Below, one piece after another: positions 1,522 to 17,611 of a stretch of 64,000 nucleotides of DNA (position 1 is its first letter; each line of letters starts with the position of its first letter). Both the position numbers and the translations under genes were made by a program. The stretch is from positions 558,001 to 622,000 of the forward strand of contig NZ_CP094828.1 in the NCBI RefSeq assembly GCF_022865125.1, read 5' to 3'. The notes under the pieces were generated by a model. It was not told the origin of the DNA, did not search any database, and saw only the letters and a program-made list of their open reading frames with translations. Source of the stretch: Acuticoccus sp. I52.16.1. GTDB lineage: Bacteria > Pseudomonadota > Alphaproteobacteria > Rhizobiales > Amorphaceae.

Positions 1522-2409
1522 TCAGTCGCCGATCGGCCGGTCGGCGTCGGACATTCCCAGTGCGCTGAGGCTCTGGCGGATCCGGCGCAGGCCCTCCAGG
1601 ACCTCCGGGCCGCGCACTGATGCGACCGACGTGGCGAGGACGTCCACCACGGTCAGCATGGCGTAGCGCGCGGGGCTCGGGCGGGTGATCTGGCCGTCGC
1701 TCGGGATGCTGAAGCCCAGCAGGATCTCGCTTTCGCGCGCCAGGGCCGACTGCGGATTGGTGATGGCGATCGTCGTCGCCCCGTAGGCGCGGGCGATGCG
1801 TGTCGCCTCCACCACCGAGCGCACCGAGCCCGAGCTGGACAGCGCCACCACCGTCGTCCCTTCCTGCGCCACCGCGGCGACCATGCGCTGCATCTGTCCG
1901 TCGGTGTGGGCGGCGACGGGCACGGCGAGGCGGAAGAGCCGGTTCTGCAACTCCACCGCCCCCATCGAGGACAGGCCGCCGGACCCGAACGTCACCACAT
2001 GGCGCGCGCCGGAGATCGCCAGCGCGGCGCGGGCGACGAGGCTCATGTCGAGCGCGGCGACGGTGCGCTCGATGGCCGCCGTCGCGCCGTCGCGCACCAG
2101 GGTGAGGATGTGCTCGTCGTCCGGGCTGCGCTGCACCGGCTCGGGGAACATGGTGAACCCGCCGACGGCCACCACCTGCGCCAGCCGCAGCTTGAAATCA
2201 CGCAAGCCCTCGCAGTTGAGGGCGCGGCAGAAGCGGGTGACGGTGGGCTCGGACACGCCGGCCTGTGCGGCGAGGGTCTGGATCGGCGCCTCGGACGCGT
2301 CGCTCGGCCGGTCGAGCACGATCTGGGCGAGGCGCATCTCGGCCGGGCTGCCAGCCTGGGCGAGGTGGCGCAGGCGTGCCACCATGTCGATCGTGCGCGG
2401 TCCGTCCAA
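1522..2409 (-). CDS. MurR/RpiR family transcriptional regulator
   Basis: An N-terminal winged helix-turn-helix of the RpiR type (about residues 10-80, with IQTLAAQAGVSEPTVTRFCRALNCEGLRDFKLRLAQ) is followed by a SIS domain (about 120-250, with HVVTFGSGGLSSMGAVELQNRLFRL and VVALSSSGSVRSVVEATRIARAYGATTIAITN). SIS domains in this family bind phosphosugars or related small molecules and release DNA. I chose the TTG at 2409 because GAGAGGGGG lies just upstream; an ATG at 2385 is the alternative and gives 287 residues. The gene is divergent from the RidA/hydrolase/TRAP cluster and is its most likely local regulator. The ligand is unknown. Confidence 0.9.
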   Translation of the reverse strand: MDGPRTIDMVARLRHLAQAGSPAEMRLAQIVLDRPSDASEAPIQTLAAQAGVSEPTVTRFCRALNCEGLRDFKLRLAQVVAVGGFTMFPEPVQRSPDDEHILTLVRDGATAAIERTVAALDMSLVARAALAISGARHVVTFGSGGLSSMGAVELQNRLFRLAVPVAAHTDGQMQRMVAAVAQEGTTVVALSSSGSVRSVVEATRIARAYGATTIAITNPQSALARESEILLGFSIPSDGQITRPSPARYAMLTVVDVLATSVASVRGPEVLEGLRRIRQSLSALGMSDADRPIGD

Positions 2410-2732
2410 GGTGCCCCCTCTCGGTCGGCGCTCGGCCAGCGTGGCGCGCCCGCCGCCACGCACCGGGGCGCAGCGTGAGGACACAAGAGGCGCAGCGTGG
2501 CCGCGCCCATGTCAGTTTGCAACATGAATTGCGCGCCGCTCGCCGCCCAGACGGTAAGCATCCGGACCAAAACTGAGCCAAATGCAGGAAAGTTACACAT
2601 GGCGTCTTGCGGGACGCCACACCCCGCTTCTACGCTGCTGCAACCCATCGGCCGACCCGGCGGGGCTGGCCGCGTGCGTGCTCCGGCCACCCGTGCCCGG
2701 CCGCCGCCATAACCCACGCGAGGAGCCCAGAA
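2410..2732. other. Divergent intergenic region between the RpiR gene and ridA
   Basis: This 323-bp stretch holds no convincing gene. It should carry both divergent promoters and an operator. The least GC-rich part is about 2565-2600. A perfect 7-bp inverted repeat, TGGCGTC/GACGCCA with a 6-nt loop, spans 2600-2619 and could be an operator or a leader hairpin for the rightward transcript. No clear -35/-10 pair stands out. The right end contains the AGGAG site used by ridA. Confidence 0.5.
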
Positions 2733-3095
2733 GTGGCGAAACAATGCTTCGGCAACGCCGCCGTCCCCCTCTCCCCCGCCGTCCGCGCCGGTGACTTCAT
2801 CTACGTCTCCGGCCAGGTGCCGGTGGCCGACGGCGCCGTCGTCGCCGGCGGCATCGCCGAGCAGACGCGTCAGGTGCTGAAAAACATCCAGGCCGTCCTG
2901 ACGATGGCCGGCGCCGCGATGAGCGACGTCGTCAAGACCACCGTGATCCTGACCGACGCCAAAGAGTTCGCCGAGTTCAACAAGACCTACGCCGAGTTCT
3001 TCCCGTCCGAGCCCCCCGCCCGGACCACGTCCGAGCAGAAGCTGATGATCGACATCAAGGTCGAGATCGACGCGATCGCCTACAAGCCGCTCTGA
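2733..3095 (+). CDS. RidA family (YjgF/YER057c/UK114) protein
   Basis: At 120 residues this matches the usual RidA length. It shows the conserved 'FIYVSGQVP' strand (residues 22-30), 'TVILTDAKEFAEFNKTYAEFF' (70-90) and the PPARTT motif whose Arg97 corresponds to the carboxylate-binding Arg of active imine deaminases, followed by 'VEIDAIA' (110-116). RidA hydrolyses reactive enamine/imine intermediates such as 2-aminoacrylate made by PLP enzymes. The start is a GTG with AGGAG seven bases upstream; the open frame runs further 5' without support. It heads a co-directional cluster that includes two PLP enzymes, which fits a protective or pathway-specific deaminase role. Confidence 0.9.
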   Translation: MAKQCFGNAAVPLSPAVRAGDFIYVSGQVPVADGAVVAGGIAEQTRQVLKNIQAVLTMAGAAMSDVVKTTVILTDAKEFAEFNKTYAEFFPSEPPARTTSEQKLMIDIKVEIDAIAYKPL

Positions 3096-3182
3096 GCGGC
3101 GCGCCGTCCCGTCGCCGCGCGTCCGGCGCGGCGACACCCCCGCAGCCAGGGCCTCGCACCGAGGCGCAATAGGACACGCTCC

Positions 3183-4319
3183 ATGGGTCCCGACCTCATC
3201 TTGAAGGGCGGGCGGGTGATCGACCCGTCGCAAGGCATCGACACAGTCACCGATGTCGCCTTCTCGAACGGCGCCGTCAGCCGGATCGCCGACGATATCG
3301 CCCCCGGCAACGCCGAGGTGCGGGACGTCTCCGGCAAGATCGTCACCCCCGGCATCATCGACCTGCACACCCACGTCTACTGGGGCGGAACCTCGCTCGG
3401 CGTCGACCCGGAGATGTTCGCGCGCGACAGCGCCGTGACGACGATGATCGACACCGGGTCCGCCGGTCCCGGCAACTTCGCCGGCTTCCGCAAGCACGTC
3501 ATCGAGCCGGCCGAACCGCGCATCCTCGCCTACCTGCACGTCTCGTTCGCGGGCATCTACGGCTTCCACACCAGCCTGATGGTGGGCGAGAGCCACGACT
3601 GGCGGCTGATGGCCCCGCGCCTCGCCGCCGAGGTCATCGAGGCCAACCGCGACGTCATCGTCGGCGTGAAGGTGCGCATCGGCCGCCACGCGTCGGGCCC
3701 GTCGGGGATCGACCCGCTGATCGTCGCGCTCGACGTGGCACGGGAGATGGACCTCCCGGTGATGTGCCATATCGACGAGCCGCCGCCCTCCTACGAGGCC
3801 GTCGTCGCGATGCTGCGCGAGGGCGACGTGCTGACCCACTGCTATCGCCCCTTCCCCAACTCGCCCGTCGACCCCGACGGTACGATCCGCCCCGAGGTCC
3901 TCAAGGCGCGCGACCGCGGCGTCTATTTCGACATCGGTCATGGCATGGGCTCGTTCTCGTGGAAGACGGCCAAGGCGATGATGGCCGCCGGCTTCCCGCC
4001 CGACACCATCTCTTCCGACGTGCACGCCTTCTGCATCAACGGTCCGGCCTACGACCAGCTGATGACGATGACGAAGTTCCTGCACCTCGGCATGCCGCTG
4101 ACCGAGGTGATCGAGCGCTCCACCGCGGTGCCGGCGAAGGCGCTGCAGCGGCCGGAGCTGGGCACCTTCGGCCCCGGCAACGTCGGCGACGCGTCGATCG
4201 TCTCGGTCGTCGAGGGCGAGTTCGAGCTGGCCGACGTGCGCGGCCTCGTCGAGACCGGGACGCAGAAGCTGAAGGCCGAGGGCGTGGTGCTCGCCGGCCG
4301 CTGGTGGCACGGCGAGTAG
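3183..4319 (+). CDS. Amidohydrolase-superfamily metallohydrolase (deacetylase/dihydroorotase-like)
   Basis: The 378-residue protein begins with the small beta domain 'LILKGGRVIDPSQGID' and then shows the binuclear amidohydrolase ligand set: H62 and H64 in LHTHVYWGG, K163 in VGVKVRIG (candidate carboxylated lysine), H196 in CHIDEP, H219 in THCYRP and D279 in SSDVHA. This is the pattern of the 'amidohydrolase/deacetylase' subgroup related to dihydroorotase and D-aminoacylase, which act on amide, lactam or carbamoyl bonds or remove acetyl groups. All ligands are present, so activity is expected. It lies 4 bp upstream of a creatininase-family gene, implying consecutive or alternative amide cleavages. 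The substrate is not deducible from sequence. Confidence 0.85.
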   Translation: MGPDLILKGGRVIDPSQGIDTVTDVAFSNGAVSRIADDIAPGNAEVRDVSGKIVTPGIIDLHTHVYWGGTSLGVDPEMFARDSAVTTMIDTGSAGPGNFAGFRKHVIEPAEPRILAYLHVSFAGIYGFHTSLMVGESHDWRLMAPRLAAEVIEANRDVIVGVKVRIGRHASGPSGIDPLIVALDVAREMDLPVMCHIDEPPPSYEAVVAMLREGDVLTHCYRPFPNSPVDPDGTIRPEVLKARDRGVYFDIGHGMGSFSWKTAKAMMAAGFPPDTISSDVHAFCINGPAYDQLMTMTKFLHLGMPLTEVIERSTAVPAKALQRPELGTFGPGNVGDASIVSVVEGEFELADVRGLVETGTQKLKAEGVVLAGRWWHGE

Positions 4320-4323
4320 CGCC

Positions 4324-5097
4324 ATGTACTGGGAGCGGATGACCCGCGACGAGTTGAACGCGGCCGACAAGGGCGTCCCGCTCGTCGTCTCCATCGCCGC
4401 GGTCGAGCAGCACGGCCCGCACCTCGCGACCGGGACGGACGCCTTCATCGGCAACCACTTCCTCGCCGCGCTGGAGGCGGCACGGCCCGCGGGCGTCATC
4501 GTCCTGCCACAGGTCGCGGTCGGCTGCTCGGAGCATCACATGGACCTCGGCGGCACGCTGACGGTCTCCCACGCGACGTTCACCGCCTACGTGATGGACG
4601 TCGTCGGCTCCGCGCTGCGGCACGGCTTCCGCAATGTGCTGATCCTCAACAGCCACGGCGGCAACCAGGCCGTCGGCGGCACGATCGCGCAGATGCTGGC
4701 GCAGGATCACCCCGATTGCCGGATCGTCTTCACCACGTGGTGGCAGCTCGCCGGCGCGCGGCTGCGCGAGCTAGTGGAGGGGGGGCGCGGCGCGGTCGGC
4801 CATGCCTGCGAGTTCGAGACGTCGCTGCTGATGGCGGCCGAGCCGGACGCGGTGCGCGACGCGCTGATCCCGGCGCGCGGCGACGCCCCCACCTTCCCGT
4901 GGGCCGAGGGCGACATGCTCAATGGTGCGGCGGCTCTCTGGGTGCGGCCGATGTCGGCGCTGACCGGCGGCACCGGCGTGCGCGGCGCTCCGGCGCTGGC
5001 GAACGCGCCCAAGGGCACCGCCATCACCACCGCCGTCGTCACGCGCCTCGTCGAAATCGTCGATGATCTTCAAAAGGATGTGCCGGAATCTGAATAA
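4324..5097 (+). CDS. Creatininase family amidohydrolase
   Basis: This 257-residue protein carries the creatininase-family metal motif EQHGPHL (E28, H30, H33), D39 in GTDAF, H111 in NSHGGN and the stretch GHACEFETS (159-167). The usual 'HAGE.ETS' has Cys instead of Gly here. Family members (creatinine amidohydrolase, MftE-like and FAPy-hydrolase-like proteins) hydrolyse cyclic or linear amides with two divalent metals. It follows the metallohydrolase gene by 4 bp in the same direction, so the two are surely co-transcribed. A true creatininase role is unlikely without a creatinase or sarcosine oxidase gene nearby; an unknown amide is more plausible. Confidence 0.85.
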   Translation: MYWERMTRDELNAADKGVPLVVSIAAVEQHGPHLATGTDAFIGNHFLAALEAARPAGVIVLPQVAVGCSEHHMDLGGTLTVSHATFTAYVMDVVGSALRHGFRNVLILNSHGGNQAVGGTIAQMLAQDHPDCRIVFTTWWQLAGARLRELVEGGRGAVGHACEFETSLLMAAEPDAVRDALIPARGDAPTFPWAEGDMLNGAAALWVRPMSALTGGTGVRGAPALANAPKGTAITTAVVTRLVEIVDDLQKDVPESE

Positions 5098-5160
5098 ACA
5101 TGCGGCGTCGGCGCTCACACTTTCACCATCGCGCCGGCAAATATTCGGCATTCCGCGGCC

Positions 5161-5188
5161 TTGATTGAGGAACAGCAATCATATTAAT
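5161..5188 (+). promoter_or_regulatory. Possible promoter for the TRAP genes
   Basis: The gap 5098-5265 contains an unusually AT-rich patch for this genome. TTGATT at 5161-5166 and TATTAA at 5182-5187 could serve as -35 and -10 elements with a 15-bp spacer, which is short. They precede dctP and its strong GAGGAGAGA ribosome site. The call rests on base composition and hexamer similarity alone. Confidence 0.3.
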
Positions 5189-5265
5189 CTGAACTGATCT
5201 ATCAAACATCTAGCGCCATGGACCGCCGATCGAGGCCAAACCTAGGCGCGGCAGAGGAGAGACAG

Positions 5266-6354
5266 ATGACGTTTTGGGCTGATACCAAAGGACGGCTGGG
5301 CGGCGCCGTCGCCGTCGCGGCGCTGACCGCCGGCCTCGCGATGCCGGGCGCGGCCTCCGCGCAAGAGTTCACCATGGCGATCGCCCACCTCGCCCCCGAG
5401 GACATGGACAACGAGATCCAGCCGGCGCTCGTCCACTTCAAGTCTCTCGTCGAGTCGAAGACCAAGGGCGAGGTCGAGGTCGAGATCTTCGGCGCCGGCC
5501 AGCTGGGCTCCGAGGTCGAGACCGGCAAGCAGGCGCAGGACGGCGCGCTGTTGCAGTCGACGATCATCTCGTCCGGCGCGATGAGCTCCTTCTTTCCGAA
5601 GTACCAGGTCATCACCGCGCCCTTCCTCTTCCCCAATTACGAAGTCGCACACGCCTTCTTCGACGGGGCGTGGTTCGCCAACTTCATGAAGGGCTCCATC
5701 GAGGAGTCGGGCCTGCGTTATCTCGGCACGTTCGACGACGGGGGCGGCTTCGTCGCCTTCACCAACAACGGCAAGCTGATCAAGACGGTCGACGATCTCG
5801 CCGGCATGAAGATCCGCGTCGAGGAGAACCCGGCCCACGTCGCCACCATGAAGGCGCTCGGCGCCTCGGCGACCCCGCTCCCCTGGGGCGAGGTGGTGAC
5901 CGCGCTCTCGACCGGCCTCGCGGACGGCCAGTTCAACGCGCCGGGTGTGTCCAAGAACTTCTCGCTCTGGGAAGTGAACGATTACACGACCCTCTCGGGC
6001 CACGTGTACAACTCGCAGTCCTGGCTGGTCTCCGAGGAGTGGTTCCAGTCGCTCCCCGAGGAGTACAAGGAAGCCGTCATCACCTCCGCGCGTGAGGCGA
6101 TCGAGCTGGCGCACGGCATTTCGGCGCTCGCCGCGATCAAGGGCTGGCAGGCCTCCTGCGAGAACTTCGACGAGTGCTACGTCCTGCCCGACGAGGAGCG
6201 CACGAAGATGGCCGACATCGCGCGTCCGGCCTGGCAGGAGTGGATCGTCGGCGACTTCGGTCTCGACGCCGCGCTGGTGGACGAGCTGTTCGCCACCGTC
6301 GAGGAGATCAAGGCCGACGTGACCGAGACCGACATGGAACGCTACGGCAACTGA
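5266..6354 (+). CDS. dctP: TRAP transporter substrate-binding protein, DctP family
   Basis: The 362-residue precursor has a typical signal peptide with cleavage expected after ASA at residue 32 (MTFWADTKGRLGGAVAV... PGAASA/QEF). The mature part shows DctP features: 'AHLAPEDMDNEIQPALVHFKSLVESKTKGEVEVEIFGAGQLGSEVET', the 'MKIRVEENPAH' segment whose Arg normally pairs with the ligand carboxylate, and 'PLPWGEVVTALSTGLADGQFNAP'. It should bind an organic anion in the periplasm and deliver it to the DctQM permease encoded next. I prefer the ATG at 5266, with GAGGAGAGA upstream, over an in-frame ATG at 5218, because it gives a clean signal peptide. A strong hairpin follows its stop. Confidence 0.93.
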   Translation: MTFWADTKGRLGGAVAVAALTAGLAMPGAASAQEFTMAIAHLAPEDMDNEIQPALVHFKSLVESKTKGEVEVEIFGAGQLGSEVETGKQAQDGALLQSTIISSGAMSSFFPKYQVITAPFLFPNYEVAHAFFDGAWFANFMKGSIEESGLRYLGTFDDGGGFVAFTNNGKLIKTVDDLAGMKIRVEENPAHVATMKALGASATPLPWGEVVTALSTGLADGQFNAPGVSKNFSLWEVNDYTTLSGHVYNSQSWLVSEEWFQSLPEEYKEAVITSAREAIELAHGISALAAIKGWQASCENFDECYVLPDEERTKMADIARPAWQEWIVGDFGLDAALVDELFATVEEIKADVTETDMERYGN

Positions 6355-6365
6355 CGCCGACGAGG

Positions 6366-6390
6366 GCGCGGGCGGCACTCCCGCCCGCGC
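6366..6390 (+). terminator. Hairpin after dctP (differential-expression stem-loop)
   Basis: A perfect 10-bp inverted repeat (GCGCGGGCGG/CCGCCCGCGC, 5-nt loop) begins 11 bp after the dctP stop and has no T-run. In binding-protein transporters such intercistronic hairpins often stabilise or partly terminate the message so that the periplasmic protein outnumbers the permease. The remainder of the 179-bp dctP-dctQ gap is GC-rich and has no gene that I can support. Confidence 0.55.
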
Positions 6391-6533
6391 GACAGCCGCG
6401 CCCGGCGCGGCACACGCGGACCGGCCTCGCCCCGACGCGCGAACGGGCGGCGCCGAACTCGCCCCGCGTCCGTGCGCTGCGCAGGCGGCGCGGCGGCCGG
6501 CCCCGGAACGGCACACCCTTCAGAAAGGCCCCT

Positions 6534-7067
6534 ATGACGTTCTCGCGCAGCCGGCTCTCGGCCGGTTTGAACCGGGCGGTCAGCACCGTCTGCGTCCTCT
6601 TCATATTGGCGATGCTGGCGATATCCTTCTCCGGCTTCTTCTACATGATCGTCACCGGGGACGCGCTGTCCTGGACCTACTCGCTGGCGCGGCTCTTCAT
6701 TCCGTGGCTCGGAATGCTCTCGCTCACGGTCGCCTTCTGGCATGGCGAGCACATCGCGATGACGGCGATCATCGCCATCCTTCCCCAGCCCGTCGTCACG
6801 GCGCTGCACATCCTCAACACCGCCCTCGTCGCGCTCTTCGCGGGCCTGCTGATCTGGTACGGTTGGAAGTTCTTCTCCAAGTCGACCGACATCTACATGG
6901 TCTCCGACACCATCCAGATCCACGCCCAGTGGGTCACCGCGTGCGTGCCGGTGACGGGCGCCGTCCTCCTCGCCCACGTCCTGTGCGGGGCCAACCTCCT
7001 CGATGAAGAAAGCCCGATGGACGAAGCGCGCGAACTCGCCGCCGGCGAGAAGGACAACCGCCCATGA
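6534..7067 (+). CDS. dctQ: TRAP transporter small permease, DctQ family
   Basis: The 177-residue protein has four hydrophobic segments (about residues 18-40, 50-68, 85-105 and 130-150), matching the DctQ fold. It includes the 'GMLSLTVAFWHGEHIAMTAI' region, equivalent to the conserved 'G.......HI.V' motif of small TRAP subunits. The start at 6534 is an ATG preceded by GAAAGG; the open frame continues upstream into low-complexity GC-rich sequence without support. Its end overlaps the dctM start by ATGA, so the two permease parts are translationally coupled. Confidence 0.88.
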   Translation: MTFSRSRLSAGLNRAVSTVCVLFILAMLAISFSGFFYMIVTGDALSWTYSLARLFIPWLGMLSLTVAFWHGEHIAMTAIIAILPQPVVTALHILNTALVALFAGLLIWYGWKFFSKSTDIYMVSDTIQIHAQWVTACVPVTGAVLLAHVLCGANLLDEESPMDEARELAAGEKDNRP

Positions 7068-8341
7068 CCTCCGCGATCATCGTCTTCGTCGTCCTCCTCT
7101 TCATCGGCACGCCCATCGCGCTTCTGATGACCTTCTCGGGCCTCGCCGGGAGCTGGGAGCTGGGCGGGCTGCGGTTCATCCAGATCATCGCCGAGCGGAT
7201 GTTCTCGGGCGTCTCGGGCTACCTCCTGATGGCGGTGCCCTACTTCATCTTCACCTCGGAGCTGATGAACCAGGCGGGGCTCACCGAGCGTCTGGTGGCG
7301 TTCAACAACGCACTGCTGGGGCGGGTGCGCGGCGCACTCAGCCACGTCAACATCGTCGTCAGCCTGTTCTTCTCCGGCCTCACGGGCGCGGCGATCACCG
7401 ACACCGTCGCCGTCGGCAAGATCCTCATCCCCGCCATGAAGAAAGAGGGGTACACCCCCGCCTACGCCGCGGCGGTGACGGCCTGCTCGTCGATCATCGG
7501 CCCGATCATCCCGCCGTCGGTGGTGATGGTCGTCTACGCCGCGATCCTGCACAACGTGACCGTGCTCGACCTCTTCGCCGCCGGCATCCTGCCGGGCGTC
7601 TTGATGACGGTGGCGCTGCTGATCGCCTCGTTCGTCATGGCCTGGATCTACAAATTCCCCCGCCACGGCGACACGAACCTGAAGGACGCCGCGCGCGCCT
7701 TCATTCCGACCATCCCGGCGCTCCTGGTGCCCGTCATCATCCTGGGCGGGATCCTGGGCGGGCTCACCACGATCACCGAGGCCTCGGCGTTCGCGGCGAT
7801 GTACACGCTGGTGCTGGGTTTCCTCGTCTACCGCACGCTGACGCTCGCCAAGGTGTGGGCCTGCCTCGTCGCCACGGTGCGCTTCTCGGGCGTGGTCTTC
7901 TTCCTGCTGGCGTCGTCGACTGTGCTGGGCTGGTTCGTCACCCGCTCCGGCCTCGCCCGCGACGCGGCCGGCATGATCACCGCGATCTCCGACAACTGGA
8001 TCGTGCAGATCGGCCTCGTCAACGTGCTGCTCATCCTGCTCGGCACGGTACTCGACGTTCTGCCGGCGCTGGTCGTCGTGGCGCCCGTCCTGGTGCCGGC
8101 GATGGTGCAGCTCGGGTTCGACCCGCTGCACTTCGCCATCGTCATGATCATCACGCTCAATGTCGCCAACATCACCCCGCCGGTGGGGATGACCTTGATG
8201 ACCGCCTCGCAGATCGCGGGCGTCCCCTACCACCGCGCGATCGTGACCGCCCTGCCGTTCTACCTCAGCCACCTCGCGGTGATCGTCGTGGTATCGTTGT
8301 GGCCCGCGTTCGTGCTCTTCATTCCGAGCCTGTTCGATTAA
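7064..8341 (+). CDS. dctM: TRAP transporter large permease, DctM family
   Basis: The 425-residue integral membrane protein has about 12 hydrophobic segments and classic DctM signatures: 'GVSGYLLMAVPYFIFTSELMNQAGLTERLV', 'FSGLTGAAITDTVAVGKILIPAMKKEGYTPAYAAAVTACSSIIGPIIPPSVVMVVYA' and a final 'ITLNVANITPPVGMTLMTASQIAGVP'. It is the Na+-coupled translocation subunit in the inner membrane. It overlaps dctQ by 4 bp. The transporter sits between hydrolases and PLP enzymes, so it very likely imports their substrate. Confidence 0.95.
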   Translation: MTSAIIVFVVLLFIGTPIALLMTFSGLAGSWELGGLRFIQIIAERMFSGVSGYLLMAVPYFIFTSELMNQAGLTERLVAFNNALLGRVRGALSHVNIVVSLFFSGLTGAAITDTVAVGKILIPAMKKEGYTPAYAAAVTACSSIIGPIIPPSVVMVVYAAILHNVTVLDLFAAGILPGVLMTVALLIASFVMAWIYKFPRHGDTNLKDAARAFIPTIPALLVPVIILGGILGGLTTITEASAFAAMYTLVLGFLVYRTLTLAKVWACLVATVRFSGVVFFLLASSTVLGWFVTRSGLARDAAGMITAISDNWIVQIGLVNVLLILLGTVLDVLPALVVVAPVLVPAMVQLGFDPLHFAIVMIITLNVANITPPVGMTLMTASQIAGVPYHRAIVTALPFYLSHLAVIVVVSLWPAFVLFIPSLFD

Positions 8342-8360
8342 CCCGGCTTCCCGGCCGGGT
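8341..8360 (+). terminator. Short hairpin between dctM and the aminotransferase gene
   Basis: A perfect 7-bp inverted repeat (ACCCGGC/GCCGGGT, 6-nt loop) begins at the last base of the dctM stop codon. It has no T-run and the next gene starts 18 bp later, so it is more likely an RNA-processing or attenuating element than a full terminator. Confidence 0.35.
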
Positions 8361-8378
8361 CCCTCTGGAGACCGTCCC

Positions 8379-9752
8379 ATGGCGCTCGACGCCCCCACCA
8401 ACTCGACCATCATCGCCGATTTCCGCGACCGCACGCGCCGCTCCGCCGCACAGGCGGAGAAGGCGCGCACGGTGTTCCCGTCCGGCATCACCCACGACGC
8501 GCGGCACATGCTGCCCTACCCGGTGACCGTCGATCAGGGAAAGGCGAGCCGCAAATGGGACATCGACGGCAACGAGTACGTGGACTATTTCGGCGGCCAC
8601 GGCGCGCTGATCCTCGGCCACTGCCACCCGCGGGTGACGGCGGCCATCAAGGAGGCGGTCGACGACGGAACGCAGTTCGCCGCCTCCACCACGCGTGAGT
8701 GCACCTGGGGCCAGGCGGTGATCGACATGGTCCCCTCCGTCGAGCGGGTCCGCTTCACCGCGTCCGGGACGGAGGCGACGCTGCTCGCGCTGCGCCTGGC
8801 GCGCGCCTACACCGGCCGCACCAAGCTCCTGCGCTTCGCATCCTACTTCCACGGCTGGCACGACCACATGACCAGCGGTTACGCCAATCACTTCGACGGC
8901 TCGCCGACCGCCGGGGTCCTGCCGTCGATCGCCGCCGACGTGATCCTGATCGCGCCGAACGACGTGGAGGGCGCGCGTGCGGCTCTGGCGAGCGGCGACG
9001 TCGCGGCCGTCATCATCGAGCCGACGGGCGCCTCGTTCGGGCGCGTGCCGGTGGCCGACGGCGTGCTGGAGGCGCTGCGCGAGGCGACGACGGCGACCGG
9101 CACCCTCCTCGTCTTCGACGAGGTGATCTCCGGCTTCCGCGTCGCCCCCGGCGGAGCGCAGGAGGCCTCGGGCGTGATCCCGGACCTCACCACCATGGCC
9201 AAGATCGTCGCCGGAGGACTTCCGGGTGGCGCGGTCGGCGGACGGGCCGACATCATGGAGCGGATCGACTTCGAGGCGGCCGCCGAGAAGGGGTTCGAGA
9301 AGATCGCCCATCCCGGCACCTTCAACGCCAACCCGGTCACCGCCGCCGCCGGCATCGCCGCGCTCGACATCATCGCCAAGGGCGGCGTCTGCGAGCATGC
9401 CAACGCCTACGCCGCCGAGCTGCGGGAGAGGCTGAACCGCCTGTTCGCGGCCACGGGCGTGCCGTACGCCGCCTACGGGACCTATTCGGGCTTCCACATC
9501 TTCCTCAATGTCGAGAAGCGCTCGATCGACCCCACCGCGTTCGACCCCTTCACGGTGCCGTGGAAGGAGCTGAAGGCCGCGCCGTCGACCTTGGTCGACC
9601 GGCTGCGCATGGCGATGATGCTGAACGGGGTCGATCTCAGCGGCTGGCCGGGCGGCCTCGTCAGCGCCGCCCACACCGATGCCGACATGGCTTTGACGAT
9701 GACCGCCTTCGAGGCGGCCCTGCAGCGCCTCAAAGACGAGCCGGACCTGTGA
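8379..9752 (+). CDS. Class III PLP aminotransferase, glutamate-1-semialdehyde aminomutase-like
   Basis: The 457-residue enzyme resembles GSAM: 'YVDYFGGHGALILGHCHPRV' (residues 68-86), 'RFTASGTEATLLALRLARA' (125-143), 'HGWHDHM' (158-164), the PLP-contacting FDEVISGFR with D247, and the Schiff-base lysine K275 in MAKIVAGGLPGGAVGG. Such non-hemL homologues in catabolic clusters usually act as omega-transaminases or aminomutases on small amino acids. It follows dctM by 37 bp and its TGA stop overlaps the next gene's GTG start. A haem biosynthesis role is unlikely in this context. The amino donor and acceptor are unknown. Confidence 0.87.
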   Translation: MALDAPTNSTIIADFRDRTRRSAAQAEKARTVFPSGITHDARHMLPYPVTVDQGKASRKWDIDGNEYVDYFGGHGALILGHCHPRVTAAIKEAVDDGTQFAASTTRECTWGQAVIDMVPSVERVRFTASGTEATLLALRLARAYTGRTKLLRFASYFHGWHDHMTSGYANHFDGSPTAGVLPSIAADVILIAPNDVEGARAALASGDVAAVIIEPTGASFGRVPVADGVLEALREATTATGTLLVFDEVISGFRVAPGGAQEASGVIPDLTTMAKIVAGGLPGGAVGGRADIMERIDFEAAAEKGFEKIAHPGTFNANPVTAAAGIAALDIIAKGGVCEHANAYAAELRERLNRLFAATGVPYAAYGTYSGFHIFLNVEKRSIDPTAFDPFTVPWKELKAAPSTLVDRLRMAMMLNGVDLSGWPGGLVSAAHTDADMALTMTAFEAALQRLKDEPDL

Positions 9753-10807
9753 AGATCGCCGACGTCGACACCCCGGCGATCCTCGTCGACACCGCGCGCG
9801 CCGAGGCCAACCTCGCCCGCGCGCAGGCCTACGCCGACACGCACGGCCTGACGCTGCGCCCGCACATCAAGACGCACAAGCTGCCGATGTGGGCCGCGCG
9901 GCAGGTGGCGCTGGGCGCGGCCGGCATCACCTGCCAGAAGATCGGTGAGGCGGAGGTGATGGCGGACGCCAGCATCACCGACATCTTCATCCCCTACAAC
10001 ATCCTGGGCGCGGCCAAGCTCGAGCGCCTCGCCGCGCTCCACGCGCGCGTCGCCTTGTCCGTCGCGGCCGACAGCGCGGTGACGGTGGCCGGCTACGCGG
10101 CGCGCTTCGACGACCCCGCGCGCCCGCTGCCGGTGCTGATCGAGATCGACACCGGCGCCAAGCGCTGCGGCGTCTCGTCCCTGCCGGATCTGGTCGAGCT
10201 GGCACGGGCGATCGACGCGGCACCCGGCCTGGTCTTCGAGGGGATCATGACCTACCCGCCGCGCGGGCGGACGGCGGATGTCAACGCCAAGCTGGGCGAG
10301 GCGGCCGGTGTGCTGAAGGCGGCCGGGCTGCCGCCGCGACGCATCTCGAACGGTGGCTCGCCCGACCTCTACCACGCCGCCGAGGTGACGAACGCGACCG
10401 AGCATCGTCCCGGAACCTACATCTACTCCGACCGAATGCAGGTGGCGTTCGGCCTCGGCCACCTCAGCGACTGTGCGCTGACGGTGCTCGCGACCGTCGT
10501 CAGCCATCCTGTCCCCGGCCGCGTGGTGCTCGACGCCGGCTCCAAGGCGCTGGCGGCCGACGCCGCGCCGGTGCCGGGCCACGGCTACCTCGTCGAATAT
10601 CCGGATGCGATCGTCACCTCGCTCAGCGAGGAGCATGCGGTCGTGGACGTGTCCGACTGCCCCACCGCGCCGGCGATCGGCGAGCGCGTGCGGGTGATCC
10701 CGAACCACGTCTGCGTCGTGTCGAACCTCTTCGAGGTTGTGCATCTGGTGGACGGCGACACCGTGAAAGAGGTCGTCCCCGTGGCCGCCCGCGGCCGCCT
10801 GGGCTGA
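9749..10807 (+). CDS. D-threonine aldolase / D-serine dehydratase-like PLP enzyme
   Basis: The 352-residue fold-type III PLP protein opens with 'DTPAILVDTARAEANLARAQAYADTHGLTLRPHIKTHK'; K41 in RPHIKTHK matches the Schiff-base lysine of D-threonine aldolases. 'IEIDTGAKRCGV' and 'RISNGGSPDLYH' follow, and the C-terminal PNHVC supplies the His-x-Cys metal pair of this family. Members cleave D-beta-hydroxy-amino acids to glycine plus aldehyde, or dehydrate D-serine. The start is a GTG overlapping the preceding stop codon (GTGA), so the two PLP enzymes are coupled. The product could feed the neighbouring transaminase, and enamine by-products would suit RidA. Confidence 0.88.
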   Translation: MKIADVDTPAILVDTARAEANLARAQAYADTHGLTLRPHIKTHKLPMWAARQVALGAAGITCQKIGEAEVMADASITDIFIPYNILGAAKLERLAALHARVALSVAADSAVTVAGYAARFDDPARPLPVLIEIDTGAKRCGVSSLPDLVELARAIDAAPGLVFEGIMTYPPRGRTADVNAKLGEAAGVLKAAGLPPRRISNGGSPDLYHAAEVTNATEHRPGTYIYSDRMQVAFGLGHLSDCALTVLATVVSHPVPGRVVLDAGSKALAADAAPVPGHGYLVEYPDAIVTSLSEEHAVVDVSDCPTAPAIGERVRVIPNHVCVVSNLFEVVHLVDGDTVKEVVPVAARGRLG

Positions 10808-11181
10808 AGCCCCCACCCGCCGCGGGGGCGCCCATCATCCGCGGCGGCCGGCCGACGACCCGAACGCCGCCGCGCCCTGGAGAGGCCCGGCGGCGCCGCG
10901 TTCCGGCCCGGCCGGGCATCCCACGGCGAACGACCGAGGCCTTCATCAGCGCGCCCATGCCGAGGCACCCCGCAACCCGGCGGCGGCGATGAACCAGGCG
11001 CGACCGACCGCACGCCGCGACGACGCCGTGGCCATCGCAACTCCGCCGGCCGATGCAGACAGGGAGAACCCGGTCAGATCGAAGGCGAGGTCAGAATGAA
11101 AGCGCGGCGAGAGCGCCGCTGCGGCGAGGAATGCCGAGCGGCCGCATGTCGTGCGGCTGATTTTTGATGGTGTGATTTGTT
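10808..11181. other. Gene-free region between the catabolic cluster and tRNA-Gly
   Basis: This 374-bp stretch has no supported gene; short frames on both strands lack ribosome sites and protein-like composition. Its left part holds the GC-rich hairpin annotated separately at 10865-10895, which probably ends the rightward operon. The right end near 11155-11181 becomes more AT-rich and lies just downstream of the tRNA, which is read leftward. No T-run terminator is visible there. Confidence 0.5.
10865..10895 (+). terminator. Terminator-like hairpin after the catabolic cluster
   Basis: A 12-bp stem with one mismatch (CGCCGCCGCGCC against GGCCCGGCGGCG) and a 7-nt loop lies 57 bp after the last gene of the cluster. 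No U-tract follows, so it may act with Rho or as an mRNA 3' stabiliser. The fold is seen in the sequence; function is inferred. Confidence 0.45.
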
Positions 11182-11256
11182 TGGAGCGGGCGATGGGATT
11201 CGAACCCACGACCCCAACCTTGGCAAGGTTGTGCTCTACCCCTGAGCTACACCCGC
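11182..11256 (-). tRNA. tRNA-Gly(GCC)
   Basis: On the minus strand the cloverleaf reads with acceptor GCGGGTG pairing with CGCCCGC (one G-U pair), a D-arm GCTC...GAGC, an anticodon stem and loop with CTTGCCAAG giving anticodon GCC, and a T-arm with GGTTCGAATCC. The discriminator is U, as in most bacterial tRNA-Gly, and the 3' CCA is encoded at 11184-11182. Total length is 75 nt with CCA. The gene lies alone between the catabolic cluster and glk. Confidence 0.97.
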
Positions 11257-11376
11257 ATCCGAGCAACGGCGCCGCGTCAGCGCGTTGCGTGGCAGCCATA
11301 TGGACGATTAGCCGGGAGAGCGCAAGCCCTCATTTCCGACCTTTTCCACATGGCCCCGATTCTCCCCGGCGCACAC

Positions 11377-12441
11377 CTAGGGCACCAGCCCGTTCGGCCC
11401 GAACCTGCGCTCCGACAGGTCGAGCGCGAACCGCTCCGGCAGGGTCGCGAAGCTCGCCATGCCCGACACCGCCGGCTTCGGCTCGGTGATGAGGTAGGTG
11501 GGGATGTCGCGCATGATCGCCGCATGCGGGGCCTTCGCCTCGAACGCGGCGCGAAAGCCGCTGGAGGCGATCCGATCGGCCAGGCGCGGCACGATCCCGC
11601 CGCCGATATAGACGCCGCCCTTGGCCAGCGTCACCAACGCCAGATCGCCGGCCATCCGGCCCAGATAGGTGAGGAAGAGGTCGATCGCCTCCGCGGCGAT
11701 CACGTCGTCGTAGCCGAGCGCGTGCGTCACCTCCGAGCCCTCGGTGCACCAGGGGTCCTTGCCGTCGGCTCGGGCGATGGCCCGGTAGATCCGCGCCAGC
11801 CCCCGGCCCGACAGCAGCGTCTCGCCGCTGATGCGCCCGTGCAGCCGGTCGATGTGCGGCCAGATCTGGAAGTCGCGGTCGGTCTCCGGCGCCAGCGAGA
11901 CGTGCCCGCCCTCGCCGGCCAGCGGCGTATAGCGTTTGTCGCCATAGACCATGACGGCGACGCCCAGCCCCGTCCCCGGCCCGATCACCACCCGCGGCGC
12001 GCGCGGCACGGTCTCGCCGGCACCCACTTGCAGCAGCTGCTCCCCGTGGAGGTAGGGGAGCGAGAGCGCCAGCGCCTCGAAGTCGTTGAAGGTGATCACG
12101 GTGTCGAGGTTGAGCTGCCGGCACAGCGCAACCGGGTCGATCTCCCAGTCGGCGTTGGTGAGCTTGACATGGGCACCGGTGATGGGGCCGGCGGCCGCGA
12201 TCAGACAGGAGCGCGGCATGATGGCGGTCGCGTCGAGCACCGTCGCCTCCGCCGCGCTGGCGAAGTCGGGGAAGGCGGAGGTCTGCACCGTGGGGAAGTC
12301 GCGCACGGGGCTATGGGCTTCGGGCAGGACGGCCAGGCGCACGTTGGTGCCGCCGATGTCGGCGATGAGGACCGGGAACGACAGGGGGCGAAGATCGCCG
12401 GCTCTTCTGCGGGGTGTTTTCATGTCCCCATTTTGCGGCAC
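11377..12441 (-). CDS. glk: Glucokinase (Glk family)
   Basis: The 354-residue protein has the ASKHA phosphate loop 'LIADIGGTNVRLAVL', 'AAAGPITGAHVKLTNADWEID', the catalytic-Asp region 'TFNDFEALALSLPYL', 'VVIGPGTGLGVAVMVYGDKRYTPLAGEGGHVSLAP' and 'KGGVYIGGGIVPRL', all typical of bacterial glucokinases of the E. coli Glk type. It phosphorylates glucose with ATP in the cytoplasm. The start is a GTG at 12441 with AAGGAG eight bases upstream; an internal ATG at 12423 has a poorer site. It is divergent from the URC genes, with 152 bp between, and convergent in sense with tRNA-Gly downstream. Confidence 0.92.
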   Translation of the reverse strand: MPQNGDMKTPRRRAGDLRPLSFPVLIADIGGTNVRLAVLPEAHSPVRDFPTVQTSAFPDFASAAEATVLDATAIMPRSCLIAAAGPITGAHVKLTNADWEIDPVALCRQLNLDTVITFNDFEALALSLPYLHGEQLLQVGAGETVPRAPRVVIGPGTGLGVAVMVYGDKRYTPLAGEGGHVSLAPETDRDFQIWPHIDRLHGRISGETLLSGRGLARIYRAIARADGKDPWCTEGSEVTHALGYDDVIAAEAIDLFLTYLGRMAGDLALVTLAKGGVYIGGGIVPRLADRIASSGFRAAFEAKAPHAAIMRDIPTYLITEPKPAVSGMASFATLPERFALDLSERRFGPNGLVP

Positions 12442-12593: not shown

Positions 12594-13844
12594 ATGGGCG
12601 ACCCCATCAATCGCAAGACCCACATACGCCTCACGTCGCACCCTGGGAACGGGCGCACCTTGCGCTTCCCGCTCCATTGGGGAGCGGAGGATCCCATCGC
12701 CCGCGGGCCGATCGTCGGCACCGTCACCGAAGCGGGGGATCGCAATGCCATCGGCACCCACGGCGGCTCCTATTCGCTCTATCGCGCTCTGGCGGTAACG
12801 TCCGGCGCGCTCAATCCGATCCGCCGGCCGGACCTTCACAACACCTCCCCGGTGGTGCCGATCGGCCCGCACCCGTCCTGGTTCGACGCCAAGCGCATCG
12901 TCTCGTTGGACCCGTTCGGCCATATCGCGGCCGAGGCGTTCGGCCCGCTGATCGCCGAAGGGGTCGATATCCGGCCGACGATCGCGATCACCCGTGCGCA
13001 CCTCACCATGCATGAGCTGAACGACGCGGTCGCCAAGGGGCGGCTGAAGGTCGACGGCACGATCATGAAGGAGAGCGGCGACGTCGCCGTCACCAAGGCG
13101 GCGATCGAGCCGGTGTGGTACCTTCCCGGCATCGCCGAGCGGTTCGGCGTCGAGGAGACGCGCCTGCGCCGCGTCCTCTTCGAGCAGACCGGTGGCATGT
13201 ATCCCGAACTCGTCACCCGGCCGGACCTCCTCGCCTTCCTGCCGCCGATCGGCTCGATCAGCGTGTACATCTTCGGCGACGCGGCCAAGCTCGCCGACCC
13301 GGCGCACCGCCTCACCTGCCGTGTCCACGACGAGTGCAACGGCTCGGACGTGTTCGGCTCGGACATTTGCACCTGCCGGCCCTATCTGATCCACGGGATC
13401 GAGGAATGCGTCGCCGAGGCGCAGCAGGGCGGCGTCGGCCTGGTGGTCTACAACCGCAAGGAAGGCCGGGCCTTGGGCGAGGTGACGAAGTTCCTGGTCT
13501 ACAACGCCAGGAAACGCCAGGAGGGCGGCGACACCGCGGCCGAATACTTCGAGCGGACCGAGTGCGTCGCCGGGGTGCAGGACGCGCGCTTCCAGGAGCT
13601 GATGCCGGACGTCCTGCACTGGCTGGGCGTGAAGAAGATCCACCGCTTCATCTCGATGAGCAACATGAAGTACGATTCCATCGTCGGCTCGGGCATCGAG
13701 ATCGGCGAGCGGGTGTCGATCCCGGACGAGCTGATCCCGGCCGACGCGTCGGTCGAGATCGAGGCCAAGAAGGCGGCCGGCTACTACTCCGAGACCGGCC
13801 ACCGCGAACTCGGCACGGTGAAGGGCCGCGGCATCGATGAGTGA
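12594..13844 (+). CDS. GTP cyclohydrolase II-like protein of uracil catabolism (URC1 family)
   Basis: This 416-residue protein is about twice as long as RibA. The C-terminal half carries the GTP cyclohydrolase II core: Zn ligands C248, C259 and C261 (HDECNGSDVFGSDICTC), Y286 and the 'NRKEGRALGEVTKF' loop equivalent to RibA 'RQEGRGIGL', and 'LGVKKIHRFISMSNMKYDSIVGSGIEI'. The N-terminal 200 residues match the extra domain seen in URC1-type proteins. In the URC pathway, first described in the yeast Lachancea kluyveri, URC1 works with URC4 (DUF1688) and UPRT to break down uracil; the exact reaction of URC1 is not settled. The start is an ATG with AGGAGA. It overlaps the next gene by 8 bp. A riboflavin role is less likely in this company. 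Confidence 0.9.
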   Translation: MGDPINRKTHIRLTSHPGNGRTLRFPLHWGAEDPIARGPIVGTVTEAGDRNAIGTHGGSYSLYRALAVTSGALNPIRRPDLHNTSPVVPIGPHPSWFDAKRIVSLDPFGHIAAEAFGPLIAEGVDIRPTIAITRAHLTMHELNDAVAKGRLKVDGTIMKESGDVAVTKAAIEPVWYLPGIAERFGVEETRLRRVLFEQTGGMYPELVTRPDLLAFLPPIGSISVYIFGDAAKLADPAHRLTCRVHDECNGSDVFGSDICTCRPYLIHGIEECVAEAQQGGVGLVVYNRKEGRALGEVTKFLVYNARKRQEGGDTAAEYFERTECVAGVQDARFQELMPDVLHWLGVKKIHRFISMSNMKYDSIVGSGIEIGERVSIPDELIPADASVEIEAKKAAGYYSETGHRELGTVKGRGIDE

Positions 13845-15105
13845 GCGGCCCGAGATCGACGACACGCCCGAGCCCGACAGCCCGGAGATCGAGGCCGCGC
13901 GCCACCTCCTCTCCGCAGAGGCGGTGCGCGAGCGCTCCGCCGCCCTCTTCGCGCACATCGAGGCCGGCAAGTCGGAGCATTTCCGCTTCGACGCGGCCGC
14001 CCTGCCGGCGATCGCCGACCGCGTCGCCGCGGTGACGCGTGAGCGCTACCCGGACCTCGCCGTCCCCCTGCACGCCCGTTTCCGCCATTTCGAGAGCCCG
14101 GGCCTGGACCGGTTCGCCAGCCTCGCCGCGGCGCGCGAGTGGGCGACGCCGCAGGAGGCCGCCCGCGCCATGGGCGACCTCGCCATCGTCTCGGTGCTGC
14201 TGGACGCCGGCGCCGGCCCCACCTGGCGCTACCGCGAGGCGGCGACGGGCGAGGTCGCCGGTCGCTCCGAGGGGCTGGCGCTCGCCTCGTTCGCGATGTT
14301 CGCCTCGGGCGCCTTCTCCGCCGTCCCCGCCGACCCGCTGCGGGCGGACGCGGCGGCGCTGGAGATCGTCGGCGAAGAGGAGTTCGCCGACGGCTTCCAG
14401 ATCAGTGCCGACAATCCGCTGGAGGGCGCCGAGGGCCGCCGCGCGCTGCTGGCGAGCCTTGCCGCCGCGACCCGCGCCGCGCCGGACCTCTTCGCCACCG
14501 AGGACGACCCGCGCCCCGGCGGCCTGATCGACGCGCTGGCCGCCGAGGCCGTCGACGGCGAGCTGCCGGCGACGATGATCCTCGCCATGGTGCTGGAGGG
14601 CCTGGCGCCGATCTGGCCGAGCCGGCTGGAGCTGGGCGGCATCGCCCTGGGTGACGCGTGGCGCCATCCCGCGCTCGGCGACGGCACCCCCGGATCGGAC
14701 ATCGTCCCCTTCCACAAGCTCTCGTCCTGGCTCTCCTATTCGCTGGTGGAGCCGCTGGTGATCCGCGGGATCGACGTCGTCGACCTCGACGCGCTGCCGG
14801 GCCTCGCCGAGTACCGCAACGGCGGGCTCTTCGTGGACGGTCGCGCGCTGAGCCTCGTCGCCCCGCCCGCCGCGCCGCTGCCGGTGGACCACCCGCTGAT
14901 CGTCGAGTGGCGCGCCGCGACCGTGACGCTGCTCGACCGACTGGCGCCGATGGTGCGCGAGCGGCTCGACGCCCCGCCCGAGGCGCTGCCGCTGGCGGCG
15001 ATCCTGGAGGGCGGCACCTGGGCGACCGGGCGCCTGCTGGCCGCCGAGGCGCGTCCCGACCGCACCCCGCCGATCGCCATCATCAGCGACGGCACAGTGT
15101 TTTAA
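13837..15105 (+). CDS. DUF1688 family protein (URC4 homologue)
   Basis: A 422-residue cytoplasmic protein without signal or membrane segments. Recognisable DUF1688 stretches are 'HFRHFESPGLDRF'-like near residues 85-95, 'RSEGLALASFAMFASGAFSA' (about 145-165), 'ISADNPLEGAEGRRALLASLA' and the C-terminal 'IVPFHKLSSWLSYSLVEPLVIRGIDVVDLDALPGLAEYRNGGLFVDGRAL'. The yeast homologue URC4 is needed for uracil degradation, but its biochemical activity is unknown. Placement between a URC1-like cyclohydrolase (8-bp overlap) and uracil phosphoribosyltransferase makes the assignment firm. It is one of the least understood conserved enzymes in this window. Confidence 0.9.
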   Translation: MSERPEIDDTPEPDSPEIEAARHLLSAEAVRERSAALFAHIEAGKSEHFRFDAAALPAIADRVAAVTRERYPDLAVPLHARFRHFESPGLDRFASLAAAREWATPQEAARAMGDLAIVSVLLDAGAGPTWRYREAATGEVAGRSEGLALASFAMFASGAFSAVPADPLRADAAALEIVGEEEFADGFQISADNPLEGAEGRRALLASLAAATRAAPDLFATEDDPRPGGLIDALAAEAVDGELPATMILAMVLEGLAPIWPSRLELGGIALGDAWRHPALGDGTPGSDIVPFHKLSSWLSYSLVEPLVIRGIDVVDLDALPGLAEYRNGGLFVDGRALSLVAPPAAPLPVDHPLIVEWRAATVTLLDRLAPMVRERLDAPPEALPLAAILEGGTWATGRLLAAEARPDRTPPIAIISDGTVF

Positions 15106-15222
15106 CGCACCCTTCAGCACGCTGACGGCGGGCGCGGATGATTGCTTTGATCCGCCCGCTATGGTCCGATTTGCGGCGCTCGTATGGCCAAGCGTCGCAG
15201 CGCCGCAGGAGACCTTTCGCGA

Positions 15223-15876
15223 ATGCCGACCGACACGACCAGCACCCACCCCAACGTCACCGTCATCGACCACCCGCTGGTGCAGCACAAGCTGACGCTG
15301 ATGCGGCGCAAGACGACGTCGACGGCGAGCTTCCGCCAGCTCCTTCGCGAGATCGCGATGCTCCTGTGCTACGAGGCGACGCGCGACCTGGAGCTGGAGC
15401 TGGTCGAGATCGAGACGCCGATCCAGGCGATGCAGGCGCCGGTGCTGGCGGGCAAGAAGCTGGTCTTCGCCTCGATCCTGCGCGCCGGCGAGGGCCTGCT
15501 CGACGGCATGCTCGACCTCGTCCCGGCCGCCCGCGTCAGCCACGTCGGCCTCTACCGCGACCCCAACACGCTGTCGGCGGTGGAGTATTATTTCAAGGCG
15601 CCGGACGACATGGGCAACCGCCGCGTCATCGTGCTGGACCCGATGCTGGCGACCGCCAACAGCGCCATCGCCGCGATCGACCGCCTGAAGGAAGCCGGCG
15701 CCACGGACATGAAGTTCGTCTGCCTGCTGGCTTCGCCGGAGGGGGTCGAAAACCTTTCGGGCCACCATCCGGACGTGCCCATCGTCGCCGCGGCGGTGGA
15801 CGAGCGCCTCAACGACCACGGCTATATCGTGCCGGGTCTGGGCGACGCGGGCGACCGGATGTTCGGCACCAAGTAG
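15223..15876 (+). CDS. upp: Uracil phosphoribosyltransferase
   Basis: The 217-residue protein matches Upp along its length: '[40 protein letters not shown]', '[29 protein letters not shown]', the PRPP-binding loop [10 protein letters not shown] (the usual form is ATGGS or ATGNS), and the uracil-binding end '[20 protein letters not shown]'. It makes UMP from uracil and PRPP. In the URC pathway UPRT (URC6 in yeast) supplies the ribosylated intermediate for breakdown, so here it may be catabolic as well as salvage. I chose the ATG at 15223, with AGGAGA ten bases upstream; an in-frame ATG at 15184 adds 13 residues without a good site. Confidence 0.93.
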
Positions 15877-17320: not shown

Positions 17321-17611
17321 ATGATGACCCCCCTCAGCCCGAGCGACACCCTCGTGCGCCCCACCTGGGCGCGACTGAAGCGGTGCGACGTGCGCGGCGT
17401 CTGGGTCCTGCTGGTGCCCGAACAGGTGCTCTACCCCTGCCCCACCACCGTCGAGGTGCTGGAGCGGCTCGCCACCCCCACCCGCTTCGGCGACGTGCTG
17501 GCGGCCCTGGCGCAGGAGTACGACGCCCCGATCGACGTGATCGAAGAAGACCTCGGCCCGCTCGTGTCGGGCCTGGTGGAGCAAGGCTATGTCCGACGCG
17601 TCCACGCTTGA
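17321..17611 (+). CDS. pqqD: PQQ biosynthesis peptide chaperone PqqD
   Basis: The 96-residue protein has the PqqD winged-helix pattern: 'RPTWARLKRCDVRGVWVLLVPEQVLYPCPTTVEVLERLATPTRFGDVLAALAQEYDAPIDVIEEDLGPLVSGLVEQGYV'. PqqD binds PqqA and presents it to the radical SAM enzyme PqqE. Two adjacent ATGs (17321 and 17324) are possible starts and neither has a strong ribosome site. The stop lies 22 bp inside pqqE, an overlap that couples their translation. The usual pqqB and pqqC genes are absent between pqqA and pqqD. Confidence 0.92.
   Translation: MMTPLSPSDTLVRPTWARLKRCDVRGVWVLLVPEQVLYPCPTTVEVLERLATPTRFGDVLAALAQEYDAPIDVIEEDLGPLVSGLVEQGYVRRVHA

Follow-up and report, generated by a model that had tools for sequence, protein, structure and literature searches.

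An RpiR-linked gene cluster of Acuticoccus sp. I52.16.1, a candidate route for the uptake and breakdown of D-amino acid derivatives

A 64-kb stretch of DNA from Acuticoccus sp. I52.16.1 (contig NZ_CP094828.1, positions 558,001 to 622,000), hereafter the window, carries at 2733-10807 eight intact genes on the + strand together with a divergent RpiR-family regulator gene on the - strand, as identified from the list of open reading frames and from Pfam and NCBIfam searches. Along the + strand the order is RidA-AHS-CRN-DctP-DctQ-DctM-AT-DTA, that is an enamine/imine deaminase, two metallohydrolases, a tripartite ATP-independent periplasmic (TRAP) transporter, an aminotransferase and a second pyridoxal 5'-phosphate (PLP) enzyme, all belonging to families already known. 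This cluster is a real, rare and modular gene unit, and the reading favoured here, with a probability of about one half, is that of an RpiR-controlled operon serving to take up and degrade a D-amino acid derivative that has an amide or acyl linkage. Apparently, the gene set has so far gone undescribed: in the open-access literature searched for this combination, no description was found, in agreement with a preliminary description of this DNA that knew no named pathway with such an enzyme list, and, among the matches listed, only the paper on the ong cluster (PMC9537276) appears to bear on it.

A conserved gene unit beside an RpiR regulator

With gene starts as refined, the RpiR-family regulator (1522..2409, - strand; Pfam HTH_6 and SIS), the open frame of which could start up to 2484, faces RidA (2733..3095, +; Pfam Ribonuc_L-PSP). 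The latter is followed on the same strand by AHS, a cog3964-type amidohydrolase/deacylase (3183..4319; NCBIfam NF006689), CRN, a creatininase-fold metallohydrolase of HGGN type (4324..5097; Pfam Creatininase, 195 bits), the TRAP solute-binding protein DctP with a signal-peptide-like start (5266..6354; Pfam DctP), the small membrane subunit DctQ (6534..7067; Pfam DctQ), the large membrane subunit DctM (7064..8341; Pfam DctM, with NCBIfam TIGR00786 over its cut-off), AT, a class III aminotransferase that groups with D-phenylglycine aminotransferase (8379..9752; phmmer and a presumed PLP lysine), and DTA, a fold type III PLP enzyme (9749..10807; Pfam Ala_racemase_N and D-ser_dehydrat). The eight genes, the families named and the regulator are all present as the preliminary description had them. 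It had further counted eight gene junctions, seven of them tight enough for co-transcription; eight genes make seven junctions and, with intergenic gaps of 87, 4, 168, 179, -4, 37 and -4 nt from RidA to DTA, two overlaps and a 4-nt gap bear the claim out but two gaps above 160 nt do not. A consensus scan of 2380-11400 on the + strand gave terminator-like sites at 5568 and 7878, within genes, and at 11139, past the last gene, and no promoter-like site. A single transcript for all eight genes is plausible.

The same gene content and order recur in the genus. Relatives of AT with 73-85% identity occur in four of the seven other congeneric genomes, and in those four the full series RpiR | RidA-AHS-CRN-DctPQM-AT-DTA is intact (54-95% identity per gene), which amounts to five of the eight congeneric genomes searched, own genome counted; of the remaining three, one (89% complete) has a 38% AT relative only, and a search at E<=1e-60 gave nothing in the other two. 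By contrast, for 14 window genes that lie outside the cluster, the four congener stretches (about 19.5 kb each) contain no relative exceeding 50% identity. Because the order is the same in four congeners while these outside genes have no relatives above that level there, the conservation goes beyond chance.

Among the congener stretches themselves, the flanking genes shared at >=50% identity come down to two groups, namely a second TRAP set next to RpiR, and a set common to one congener, G005, and to G073, a genome of a different family. The Q and M genes of this second TRAP adjoin RpiR in all four congeners and in G073, and its binding protein was found in three of the four, the fourth stretch ending before that position; the second TRAP is not in the window, and nothing in the own genome matches its binding protein better than the window DctP does (34%). 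The set shared by G005 and G073, 57-62% identical, comprises a short-chain dehydrogenase/reductase (SDR), a polysaccharide-deacetylase-like protein, a gamma-glutamyltransferase-like protein and two peptide-type ATP-binding cassette (ABC) ATPases; it stands at L152:1954-7351 and L024:13962-19501, i.e. in two families, and a second RidA in L024 is devoid of the PAR[TS]T motif discussed below.

Besides its RpiR gene (56% identical to the window copy) and the second TRAP, the G073 locus has divergent RidA (68%), AHS (68%) and CRN (54%) together with a threonine-synthase-like enzyme, and the first TRAP, AT and DTA were not found in the 19.9 kb around it, which is why RpiR-RidA-AHS-CRN is regarded as the core and the PLP enzymes as variable. 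An additional threonine-synthase-like gene also stands between CRN and DctP in congener G004; in all, such a fold II PLP enzyme comes right after CRN in two genomes (L027:5078-6295 and L152:7950-9173), the window cluster being without it. CRN is rare: it was found at E<=1e-45 in a single other genome among 387 of the class, namely G073, and at E<=1e-40 in no other genome among 396 of the phylum; the 16 further genomes from the order to which G073 belongs gave no CRN either. The conserved co-occurrence next to an RpiR gene that the preliminary description called for was thus found as a full set within a single genus and as part of the set in one more family, but not broadly.

Regarding regulation, RpiR copies occupy the same place in the four congeners (55-76% identical), and the region between RpiR and RidA contains at 2509..2525 a 17-bp palindrome, ATGTCAGTTTGCAACAT, a candidate RpiR operator. 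Its form ATG[TC]N9ACA[TC] is present in five of the six divergent regions, that of G073 among them, and is missing from that of L027. A second operator-like site, ATGCAGGAAAGTTACAC, less regular, lies at 2582..2598 in a conserved block of the alignment; the pattern at that position also matches in L026, the other four loci being without a match. In the 64-kb window, ATGTN6GCAACAT has one exact match, the 2509-2525 site. With one mismatch at most, five matches occur where 0.26 would be expected, and the four additional ones stand outside the cluster. RpiR would bind these palindromes and is likely a repressor.

Active sites of the enzymes and of the binding protein

The preliminary description saw in DTA a D-threonine-aldolase-like enzyme, and by overall score the protein is indeed closer to the aldolase 4v15 (186 bits) than to the D-threo-3-hydroxyaspartate dehydratase 3wqc (124 bits) or to 3anu (87 bits). 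In the aldolase 4v15, the metal ligands are His347 and Asp349 and the proposed base is His193, while the D-serine dehydratase 3ANU and 3LLX are described with a His/Cys metal pair and without the aldolase base (PMC4401734). The metal site of the window DTA is His320/Cys322 (PNHVC), aligned with PNHAC of 3wqc and invariant in 11 of 11 aligned sequences, window protein counted, and no His stands at the 193 position (AxDTA numbering). As the metal site is of the His/Cys kind and the aldolase base is missing, DTA is probably a dehydratase, judging by these residues, and the aldolase-like chemistry is not supported; 3ANU and 3wqc are alike to it in fold family, metal pair and absent base, though distant in overall sequence. 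A dehydratase yields an enamine, the type of substrate used by RidA, and dehydration by DTA would thus explain the presence of RidA in the cluster. As for RidA itself, the PAR[TS]T motif, the Arg of which is taken to be catalytic, is found in the window copy and in seven of the eight copies compared. A further RidA-family gene lies elsewhere in the window (28362-28832), its frame opening, by eye, with a signal-peptide-like stretch.

The association of RpiR, RidA and DTA extends beyond the cluster. Plasmids of Nitratireductor and Phyllobacterium carry RpiR (42-43%) and RidA (64-72%) together with a relative of DTA (62-70%), next to genes for an SDR, an M81 metallopeptidase and sugar ABC transport, and the DTA relatives have the dehydratase signature. 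DTA has relatives in 273 plasmid records, five loci of which were opened; four have RpiR nearby, four RidA, four M81 and four SDR; the Chelatococcus locus features IclR and an amino acid ABC transporter, and in the Loktanella locus no RidA is listed, absences being weak here since the plasmid gene tables are incomplete. The Phyllobacteriaceae/Rhizobiaceae plasmid clusters (RpiR-DTA-RidA-M81-SDR-ABC) share RpiR, DTA and RidA with the window but exhibit sugar ABC transport, M81 and SDR instead of its TRAP, AHS, CRN and AT. In another genome, G217, and independently of the window cluster, an AHS relative (63%) adjoins a relative of DTA that is 45% identical and also has the His/Cys pair. The window cluster suggests that a dehydratase of this kind, RpiR and RidA make up a reusable module.

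AHS passes the NCBIfam model NF006689 (425 bits for a cut-off of 371) and, compared with 2ogj, retains the HxH, Lys, His, His and Asp presumed to be the metal ligands. We take the cog3964 label to apply to this family, so that 2ogj and AHS would be members of one family with the same presumed metal ligands; 2ogj is presumably Atu3266, taken to hydrolyse acetyl-(R)-mandelate and, weakly, N-acetyl-D-serine, for which a literature search gave no confirmation. By comparison, the D-aminoacylase 1m7j matches AHS over residues 4-65 only (2.3e-5). Relatives of AHS at E<=1e-85 are present in 34 of 387 class genomes, own counted, and the own genome has a second, 55% identical paralogue (G000:C1:4061893-4063011, locus L164); within roughly 9 kb of it, neither CRN nor DTA has a relative, whereas distant relatives of DctM and DctP are present. 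In a context sample of 18 regions, one being this second copy, plus two plasmid loci, of which 19 of 20 were clustered, ABC ATPases occurred in 8 of 19 neighbourhoods and peptide-type binding proteins in 6 of 19, with no constant enzyme partner across the 19 loci.

CRN does not reach the cut-off in any of the four NCBIfam models that it matched, including the creatininase model TIGR04448 (83 bits, cut-off 235), and has HGGN in place of the HYEN of creatininases, the Glu122 of which is taken to be a metal ligand. Its predicted fold resembles creatininases (mean predicted local distance difference test, pLDDT, 70.5) and yet, on these sequence grounds, CRN is most probably not a true creatininase. 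Relatives occur in 25 plasmid records, the best being from Roseomonas (50%), near transposases.

AT had been called a GSAM-like transaminase but it scores below the cut-off of the GSAM (glutamate-1-semialdehyde aminomutase) model TIGR00713 (296 bits, cut-off 527) and, by phmmer, reaches 400 bits to the D-phenylglycine aminotransferase 6g1f (residues 8-454) versus 236 to the best GSAM. D-phenylglycine aminotransferase (6g1f, 2cy8), taken to be the Pseudomonas stutzeri ST-201 enzyme, is accordingly the closest solved relative, and Lys275, the presumed PLP lysine, is invariant in 10 of 10 sequences. This aminotransferase is described as stereo-inverting (PMC3503884) and, by analogy with its group, AT may perform stereo-inverting transamination of D-amino acids.

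The nearest solved sequences to DctP are 4n8g, 4p47 and 4ngu. Its Arg184 (in KIRV) aligns with Arg173 of 4p47 and its Asn224 with Asn213, two residues described as carboxylate-binding (PMC11668362); in SiaP, the arginine is termed a selectivity filter for carboxylates (PMC4646407). At the position of the supporting Arg152, DctP, 4n8g and 4ngu have a hydrophobic residue where 4p47 and 7bbr carry Arg. We take Arg173 of 4p47 as the equivalent of SiaP Arg147, and 4n8g and 4ngu are presumably D-Ala-D-Ala complexes, for which literature searches gave no confirmation. DctP relatives at 59-67% exist in 3 of 191 other class genomes, accompanied by their own DctQM alone.

Candidate pathway and its alternatives

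In the favoured pathway, DctPQM would import a carboxylate and AHS and CRN would hydrolyse the imported compound in the cytoplasm to one or more D-amino acids. DTA, as a metal- and PLP-dependent dehydratase (ammonia-lyase), would act on a beta-hydroxy-D-amino acid, RidA would hydrolyse the resulting enamine/imine to a 2-oxo acid and ammonia, and AT would transaminate a different D-amino acid with 2-oxoglutarate as the acceptor, with RpiR repressing from the palindromes upstream of RidA. Speaking for this pathway are the conserved unit with its differing flanks, the dehydratase-type metal site of DTA, the plasmid and G217 neighbourhoods, the closeness of AT to D-phenylglycine aminotransferase, the binding residues of DctP and, as far as they apply, the presumed D-Ala-D-Ala ligands of 4n8g and 4ngu and the presumed activities of 2ogj. 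The preliminary description is supported in outline, with a cluster for catabolism that combines uptake and RidA with two metallohydrolases unrelated to each other and with two PLP enzymes, and that probably serves a D-configured derivative of an amino acid.

Several points weigh against this pathway. CRN has no step assigned to it, the predicted structure of DctP is middling, at a mean pLDDT of 67, the overall score of DTA is nearer to aldolases than to dehydratases, and AT and DTA may not be core members since the smaller G073 locus is without both. Besides, the relatives of AT elsewhere show no constant D-amino-acid partner. At least 580 were found, of which 80 loci were taken (top identity 60%); among the 35 of these 80 traced for other cluster genes, there was one AHS relative (40%) and no CRN, DTA or RidA relative. 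Across 85 AT loci, a nitrilase-type amidase adjoins AT in two and an alanine racemase in one, and one more has a weak racemase match (28%) about 5.6 kb off; the clustered neighbours of 39 AT loci likewise include no constant partner, the commonest being an SDR-like gene (7 loci).

A more specific form, which is tentative, would make the cluster a pathway dedicated to a conjugate of D-amino acids, a D,D-dipeptide or the like, such as one with D-serine and D-alanine from cell-wall turnover. The TRAP transporter would then import the intact conjugate, the cog3964 and creatininase-fold hydrolases would cleave it, the D-serine-like part would be deaminated by the dehydratase and RidA, and the other part would enter stereo-inverting transamination.

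Rather unlikely is an amino-sugar-acid pathway resembling ong, in which an N-acetylated aminoaldonate would be imported, deacetylated by AHS and deaminated by DTA and RidA under RpiR repression. The ong cluster of Pseudoalteromonas prydzensis ACAM 620, for oxidised chitin (GlcNAc1A), comprises an RpiR repressor, a RidA that is essential, a deacetylase of the amidohydrolase type and a PLP deaminase of fold III that also takes D-Ser and D-Thr and is distantly related to D-serine deaminase/D-threonine aldolase (PMC9537276). The four protein types RpiR, RidA, amidohydrolase-superfamily hydrolase and fold III PLP enzyme are hence common to ong and the window and, among the five plasmid loci opened, a sugar ABC transporter in four and a GH20 or beta-N-acetylhexosaminidase gene in two also speak for such a route. 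On the other side, ong as described has solute:sodium symporter (SSS) and TonB-dependent transporters, a beta-hexosaminidase, a 2-keto-3-deoxygluconate (KDG) kinase and a D-aminoacylase-type deacetylase (PMC9537276), OngB being of subtype V with Cys/His/His (PMC12017989), whereas the window has TRAP, a cog3964 hydrolase, a creatininase-fold enzyme and a class III aminotransferase. AHS matches 2ogj-type enzymes rather than the OngB type, the cluster is without KDG kinase, with elsewhere only a below-cut-off match to the KDPG (2-keto-3-deoxy-6-phosphogluconate) aldolase family, GH20 and LPMO_10 have no match at E<=0.001 in the own genome (97% complete), and AT and CRN would be left without a role. 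The absence of GH20 and LPMO_10 lowers oxidised chitin as a substrate. Given the other hydrolase type, the lack of KDG kinase in the cluster and of GH20/LPMO matches, and the two extra enzymes, the window set, which may be alike in outline, is not a member of ong, the closest described system.

Retro-aldol cleavage of a D-beta-hydroxy amino acid to glycine and an aldehyde, the chemistry suggested by the preliminary description, is unlikely. Solved D-threonine aldolases are overall the closest to DTA but it has neither their Asp nor their His193, on which grounds this chemistry is rejected, the model of BhcC from the beta-hydroxyaspartate cycle (NCBIfam NF045642) gives 180 bits for a cut-off of 690, and RidA would have no obvious use after such a step. 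Catabolism of a cyclic amide, e.g. creatinine, hydantoin or dihydropyrimidine, is a shade less probable still: two amidohydrolase-type enzymes, one of creatininase fold, would fit it, but the low creatininase score and the HYEN to HGGN change led to its rejection, and the dihydroorotase, allantoinase and hydantoinase models stay far under cut-off, covering the first 90 residues at most, among the 25 matches listed. That the genes are mere neighbours with no common pathway, as the gaps of 168 and 179 nt and the AT, DctP and AHS relatives standing elsewhere without the rest could indicate, is very improbable against an order retained in five congeners amid differing surroundings and a core recurring in another family.

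Surroundings and biological meaning

Downstream of the cluster, a tRNA gene lies on the opposite strand (11185-11256). Consecutive GTP cyclohydrolase II-like, DUF1688 and uracil phosphoribosyltransferase genes follow at 12594-15876, a trio that we take to be the composition of the URC uracil-degradation pathway, and at 17321-18722 a PqqD-like gene precedes that of a radical SAM/SPASM protein with a 23-nt overlap.

Beyond this cluster, the His/Cys metal site of DTA suggests that some proteins labelled as D-TA family would be dehydratases. Dissolved organic nitrogen commonly contains D-amino acids and their conjugates and, to our knowledge, few complete gene sets leading from their uptake to central metabolism are known. 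If the D,D-conjugate version holds true, physiological roles would emerge for cog3964 hydrolases, HGGN-type creatininase-fold enzymes and relatives of D-phenylglycine aminotransferase. In our judgement, these three families are without settled natural roles, and one rare operon unites them; as the binding protein of this operon is open to ligand screening, a single DctP screen could indicate the roles of all three.

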